Assembly (NCBI RefSeq): GCF_010233585.1
Contig: NZ_CP045997.1
Location: forward strand, 2,684,069 to 2,748,068
Reading direction: 5' to 3'
DNA: 64,000 nt
Source of the DNA: Spirosoma endbachense
GTDB lineage: Bacteria; Bacteroidota; Bacteroidia; Cytophagales; Spirosomataceae
Shown here: positions 63,182-63,617 of the stretch, in pieces
How the letters are laid out: the number at the start of each line of letters is the position of its first letter
How positions within the stretch are numbered: position 1 is the first letter of the stretch
Position numbers and translations under genes: made by a program
Notes under the pieces: generated by a model
What the model was told of the DNA's origin: nothing
What the model saw: only the letters and a program-made list of their open reading frames with translations
Databases searched by the model: none

Positions 63182-63617
63182 GTATTGACATCAAATAGGT
63201 TAGCACCAAATAAGGCTAATGACAACGTGATTAACTCGTTTAATCACACAAATATTTACGATGGAGAGTTTGATCCTGGCTCAGGATGAACGCTAGCGGC
63301 AGGCCTAATACATGCAAGTCGAACGGGCCGCAAGGTCAGTGGCAAACGGGTGCGTAACGCGTAAGCAACCTGCCTCATACTGGGGGATAGCCCGGCGAAA
63401 GCTGGGGTAAACCCGCACGGTCCTATGAAATCACCTGGTTTTATAGGTAAACATTTATGGGTCATGGGAGTTGGGGGGACCTGAAGACCGAGGTAAGAGT
63501 CGGTCAAGGGTAAACTCGGCGACTGGGGCTAAGTCGTAACAAGGTAGCCGTACCGGAAGGTGCGGCTGGAACACCTCCTTTCTGGAGCCATTAGGTGCTA
63601 CCATTGATGTCAATATG
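63181..63617. repeat. 16S precursor processing stem
   Basis: The sequence at 63183-63194 is perfectly complementary to 63604-63615 (12 bp, TATTGACATCAA), extended by a G-U and a C-G pair. These flank the 16S gene as an RNase III-type processing stem, so the flanks of the locus are those of a real rrn operon. Confidence 0.75.
63258..63581 (+). rRNA. rrs: 16S rRNA, internally deleted (about 324 nt)
   Basis: The 5' part carries the canonical AGAGTTTGATCCTGGCTCAG and about 200 further nt of normal 16S; the 3' part carries AAGTCGTAACAAGGTAGCCG and ends ACACCTCCTTT with the anti-Shine-Dalgarno. The two join near 63456-63468, where 5' sequence equivalent to about E. coli position 225 runs directly into sequence equivalent to about 1410. 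Nearly 1.2 kb is missing, including the 530 loop, the central domain and most of the 3' major domain. It cannot form a working small subunit. Either a real deleted copy or a collapsed assembly. Confidence 0.85.

Follow-up and report, generated by a model that had tools for sequence, protein, structure and literature searches.

Ribosomal RNA operons have been described as under-recovered in short-read assembly as a result of repeat collapse, according to PMC13028912, and misassembly across rRNA operons is discussed together with local assembly errors in PMC7111523. The locus analyzed here shares with such collapse or loss, as presented in sources such as PMC13028912, the under-representation of multi-copy operons, with a remainder that reflects the assembly rather than the biology. 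It differs in that the interior of the gene appears to have been dropped and the flanking contigs joined without N, leaving a remnant that looks like a gene. A literature search on truncated 16S genes, judged by title and the start of the abstract, found no paper on such a gene.

The ordinary bacterial 16S gene, located in an rrn operon with tRNA-Ile and tRNA-Ala, provides the other point of comparison. Here, pruA, the leader, both 16S ends, the tRNA genes, and their order match those of a same-genus locus, whereas 1183 bp of 16S interior present in that genome are absent. The miniature 16S is almost certainly an artefact of short-read assembly (probability about 0.98), in which the middle of a normal 16S, approximately 1.2 kb, was lost and the two remaining pieces were joined directly. 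The real gene at this locus is most likely an ordinary 16S of approximately 1.5 kb.

Results

Organization of the 16S-like locus

The window, that is, the whole 64,000-nt stretch of DNA analyzed, corresponds to genome positions 2684069-2748068 of a 10,326,072-base sequence that forms one contig. Within it, a 324-nt 16S-like stretch is located between an rrn leader and the genes for tRNA-Ile and tRNA-Ala. The features are as follows.

61300..62916, plus strand: pruA, L-glutamate gamma-semialdehyde dehydrogenase, the upstream neighbour (NCBIfam TIGR01236, 801.2 bits, cut-off 613.6)
62917..63257, plus strand: rrn leader (from the sequence; a similar leader lies 3' of pruA in the same-genus genome G006)
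63258..63462, plus strand: 16S 5' end, equivalent to bases 1-205 of the relative's gene, putative tail of the upstream contig (sequence comparison)
63462..63463, no strand: almost certainly artificial join without N, at which about 1183 bp of 16S interior are omitted (comparison of contig ends)
63463..63581, plus strand: 16S 3' end, equivalent to bases 1389-1507 of the relative's gene (sequence comparison, 100% identical)
63627..63701, plus strand: tRNA-Ile (GAT) (ARAGORN, Rfam)
63780..63854, plus strand: tRNA-Ala (TGC) (ARAGORN, Rfam)
63874..64000, plus strand: spacer end and first 40 or so bases of 23S, a 127-bp contig end common to two other places, with 33 N directly outside the window

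The Rfam model SSU_rRNA_bacteria (RF00177) covers 63258-63581 end to end, from model position 1 to 1533, with 97.3 bits in 324 nt, which bears out the first-pass annotation of a 324-nt 16S with both ends. The tandem promoters, boxA, and processing stem reported there could also be located. The leader contains two blocks, TTGCAT..TAATTTTG and TTGACA..TACCTTTG, termed promoter-like on the basis of the Bacteroidota promoter consensus, as well as a boxA-like TTCTTTGA read from the sequence. The arms of the stem, ATTGACATCAA/TTGATGTCAAT, start at 63184 and 63604, the 5' arm occupying 63184-63194. Both tRNA genes, likewise reported, were recovered by ARAGORN and Rfam. The description of an otherwise complete rrn operon does not hold, as the operon ends approximately 40 nt inside the 23S, exactly at the start of the 33-N gap. 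Beyond the window, a tandem repeat comes after the gap, and no rRNA is matched until the 5S of a further operon, on the minus strand, is reached. In this region between the two rrn fragments (genome 2748102-2749139), the repeat units are 294 bp in length, 91-93% identical, and interrupted by N gaps.

A functional 16S rRNA gene comprises the 5', central, 3' major, and 3' minor domains over approximately 1500 nt. The stretch 63258-63581 does not amount to such a gene, its 324 nt and 97.3 bits standing against 1507 nt and 1474.8 bits for the full-length 16S of G006. In the covariance-model alignment of the 324-nt chimera, pairs were broken and posterior values were low near the join.

Exact position of the join

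The join was placed exactly between 63462 and 63463, where base 205 of the relative's 16S adjoins base 1389 and 1183 nt are missing. It had been put near 63456-63468, with sequence equivalent to about E. coli 225 next to about 1410; the join itself was upheld, while its placement is sharpened here. Compared with the 16S of G006, 63258-63462 is 93% identical to bases 1-205, and 63463-63581 is 100% identical to bases 1389-1507.

The comparison with other rrn copies of the genome, suggested at first pass, revealed that these break at the same bases as the join in the window. A second 16S 5' piece (genome 8578682-8578886, minus strand) meets N at 8578682, the base equivalent to 63462, and a second 16S 3' piece (genome 2754118-2754236, minus strand) meets N at 2754236, the base equivalent to 63463. 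On both sides of the join, the contig ends share exactly 127 nt with the other 16S copies: counted back from 63462, exactly 127 bases (63336-63462) are identical to the other 5' piece and the next base differs, and counted forward from 63463, exactly 127 bases (63463-63589) are identical to the other 3' piece, after which the sequences are different. Unlike the borders by which the other pieces were recognized, the join at 63462/63463 carries no N.

In the minus-strand rrn fragment at genome 2753896-2754236, the 16S-23S spacer is short and lacks the tRNA genes found in the window's copy. Provided that this piece is itself correctly assembled, the genome may contain rrn spacers of two kinds.

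The 127-mers were compared over six genome stretches, 100 kb in all. Three of the 63,874 127-mers of the window recur there, starting at 63336, 63463, and 63874. The first two abut at the join, and the third reaches position 64000, the last base before the N gap. The background over the six stretches was 270 recurring 127-mers out of 91,607 (0.3%). Furthermore, exact maximal repeats of at least 90 nt peak at a length of 127 (35 repeats, against 6 for the next most frequent length, some possibly counted twice). At the branch points of a de Bruijn graph, contigs have k bases in common, and three recurring 127-mers, two of them abutting at the join, are the mark of de Bruijn contigs with k = 127 joined without their shared interior.

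Construction of the pseudo-chromosome

The record resembles a pseudo-chromosome in its construction. The six stretches contain 35 N runs, of which 32 are exactly 33 N long. This uniform length speaks for a scaffolder, though some of the runs could be stretches withheld by operators. Among the 72 piece ends (70 at N gaps and two at the ends of the record), 32 carry a 127-mer present elsewhere in the six stretches, and the remaining 40 have no such partner inside the 100 kb sampled. Seven pieces, located between gaps or at the end of the record, measure 254-256 nt, about 2 x 127 + 1. It can also be observed that the stretches within genome 10.246-10.326 Mb hold many short pieces, these seven included, mostly 33 N apart. 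The short pieces there are probably leftover repeat or bubble contigs, and the genome size of 10.3 Mb may be inflated by leftover contigs.

Search for the 16S interior

The interior of the host 16S was not found in the 10.3-Mb assembly by DNA searches in which all candidates were scored (6 of 6 and 11 of 11). With the 1183-bp interior of the G006 gene as query, only two places in the genome were matched, at 70-72% identity, and the full-length 16S as query added only four end pieces. Of the two interior-like places, the one near 10.256 Mb lies in a piece of 466 nt and the one near 10.295 Mb in a piece of 492 nt, each piece having N gaps on either side. Both pieces are bounded by 16S amplicon primers and carry short extra sequence beyond them; 341F matches exactly in each, and 805R matches exactly in one piece and has a single mismatch in the other. 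Over 97% of its length, the second piece (genome 10295127-10295618) matches E. coli 16S at 98.7% identity. Short tag-like ends were seen in both this piece and the first (genome 10255669-10256134). The two pieces resemble contamination by V3-V4 amplicons rather than host 16S, and are probably foreign amplicon reads that were built into the pseudo-chromosome. As candidates for the missing host interior they were rejected on the basis of their low identity to the relative's 16S and their primer bounds.

Family searches of the genome gave one 23S (12 of 197 candidates scored) and one 5S (150 of 484 scored), both of which lie immediately outside the window on the minus strand; a further family search of the genome scored 26 of 171 candidates. 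The assembly itself plainly lacks the interior of the host 16S, which is compatible with the presence and with the absence of intact copies in the cell.

Comparison with related genomes

In G006, pruA, an rrn leader, a complete 16S, tRNA-Ile, and tRNA-Ala follow one another in the same order as in the window, in a stretch without N. The PruA proteins are 88% identical, and the leader alignment, with the 16S 5' piece included, is 86.8% identical over 532 bp. Between the bases equivalent to 63462 and 63463, exactly 1183 bp are present. Accordingly, the interval from the pruA stop to the start of the tRNA gene measures about 1.9 kb in G006, against about 0.7 kb in the window. The orthologous locus was compared in this one relative. 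Genome G008 contains a full 16S, but the stretch read has no PruA match and no tRNA and is therefore uninformative on the locus. The RF00177 search of relatives gave matches in 4 of 19 genomes, including that of the host, with 12 candidates scored per genome; it also matched 9 of 14 controls (Caulobacter, positive for 23S, was not among the nine), and absence was not used. A PruA scan of genome contigs, which returned at least 80 loci with a best identity of 74% among the matches listed, was not used as evidence either.

Discussion

Both ends of the join lie on 127-bp branch points, and the orthologous locus in the relative is intact. The process that would lead to such an artefact can be outlined as follows. 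The organism probably possesses at least two near-identical rrn operons, since the 16S 5' end and the 16S 3' end each occur with two different flanks. Contigs from a short-read de Bruijn assembler with k = 127 would stop exactly 127 bases after the copies cease to differ. Subsequently, the multi-copy 16S interior would be omitted from the final pseudo-chromosome, and the contig ending in the 5' piece (to 63462) would be put end to end without N with the contig starting in the 3' piece. The second contig is probably 63463-64000, 538 bp in length. In the other rrn copies, the same contig ends are instead followed by N. The kind of assembler and the extent of the second contig are what we infer from these limits. 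Repeat collapse at an rRNA copy, which the first-pass annotation had named as its alternative, is supported by the finding that both sides of the join are 127-bp contig ends.

If one rrn copy among several had truly lost its 16S interior by deletion, that copy would be a pseudogene from which a short RNA might be transcribed, and intact 16S genes would exist elsewhere in the cell. The two 16S ends, the leader, and the tRNAs are clean, ATGGG occurs on each side of the join as had been noticed earlier, and intact copies could have dropped from the assembly, in which their absence alone is no exclusion. However, nothing would make a real deletion stop precisely at both 127-nt limits, whose positions depend on the differences between the copies. 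Break points independent of the contig limits, as a real deletion would produce, were not observed; other copies show these two ends as well, each at an N gap, and the orthologous locus is intact in the same-genus genome. We consider such a deletion very improbable. The first-pass proposal that ATGGG microhomology aided a real deletion, giving a miniature 16S-like RNA, was rejected because 127-bp identity to other rrn copies identifies both sides of the join as contig ends. As the two pieces meet directly at the 127-nt limits, with no base between them, the ATGGG that they share is probably incidental. That a real 1183-bp deletion ended at both contig limits by coincidence and makes a 16S-like RNA of approximately 320 nt with an anti-Shine-Dalgarno tail is slightly more doubtful still.

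All points against a real deletion apply equally to the idea that selection maintains a miniature 16S RNA, which would carry an anti-Shine-Dalgarno tail and act in trans. The chimera does fold better than its shuffles (z = -2.55, with 0 of 100 shuffles folding as well), but a better fold is expected anyway from two true rRNA pieces, beyond which the z-score is no evidence, and this candidate was rejected. Moreover, the covariance model scores the match at no more than 97.3 bits, its alignment near the join shows disrupted pairs and low posterior values, and the full gene is present at the one orthologous locus examined. Its probability is lower again by a clear step and close to negligible.

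Returning to the assembly artefact, 63258-63581 is almost certainly not a new RNA. A living cell must have an intact 16S, and none was found in the assembly; the short 16S therefore carries little biological weight. The single-contig record of 10.3 Mb, without a findable intact 16S and with at least one N-less join imitating a deletion, calls for caution. For any rRNA-based or structural reading of this genome and of similarly built ones, overlaps of k-mer length at the break points should be checked first.
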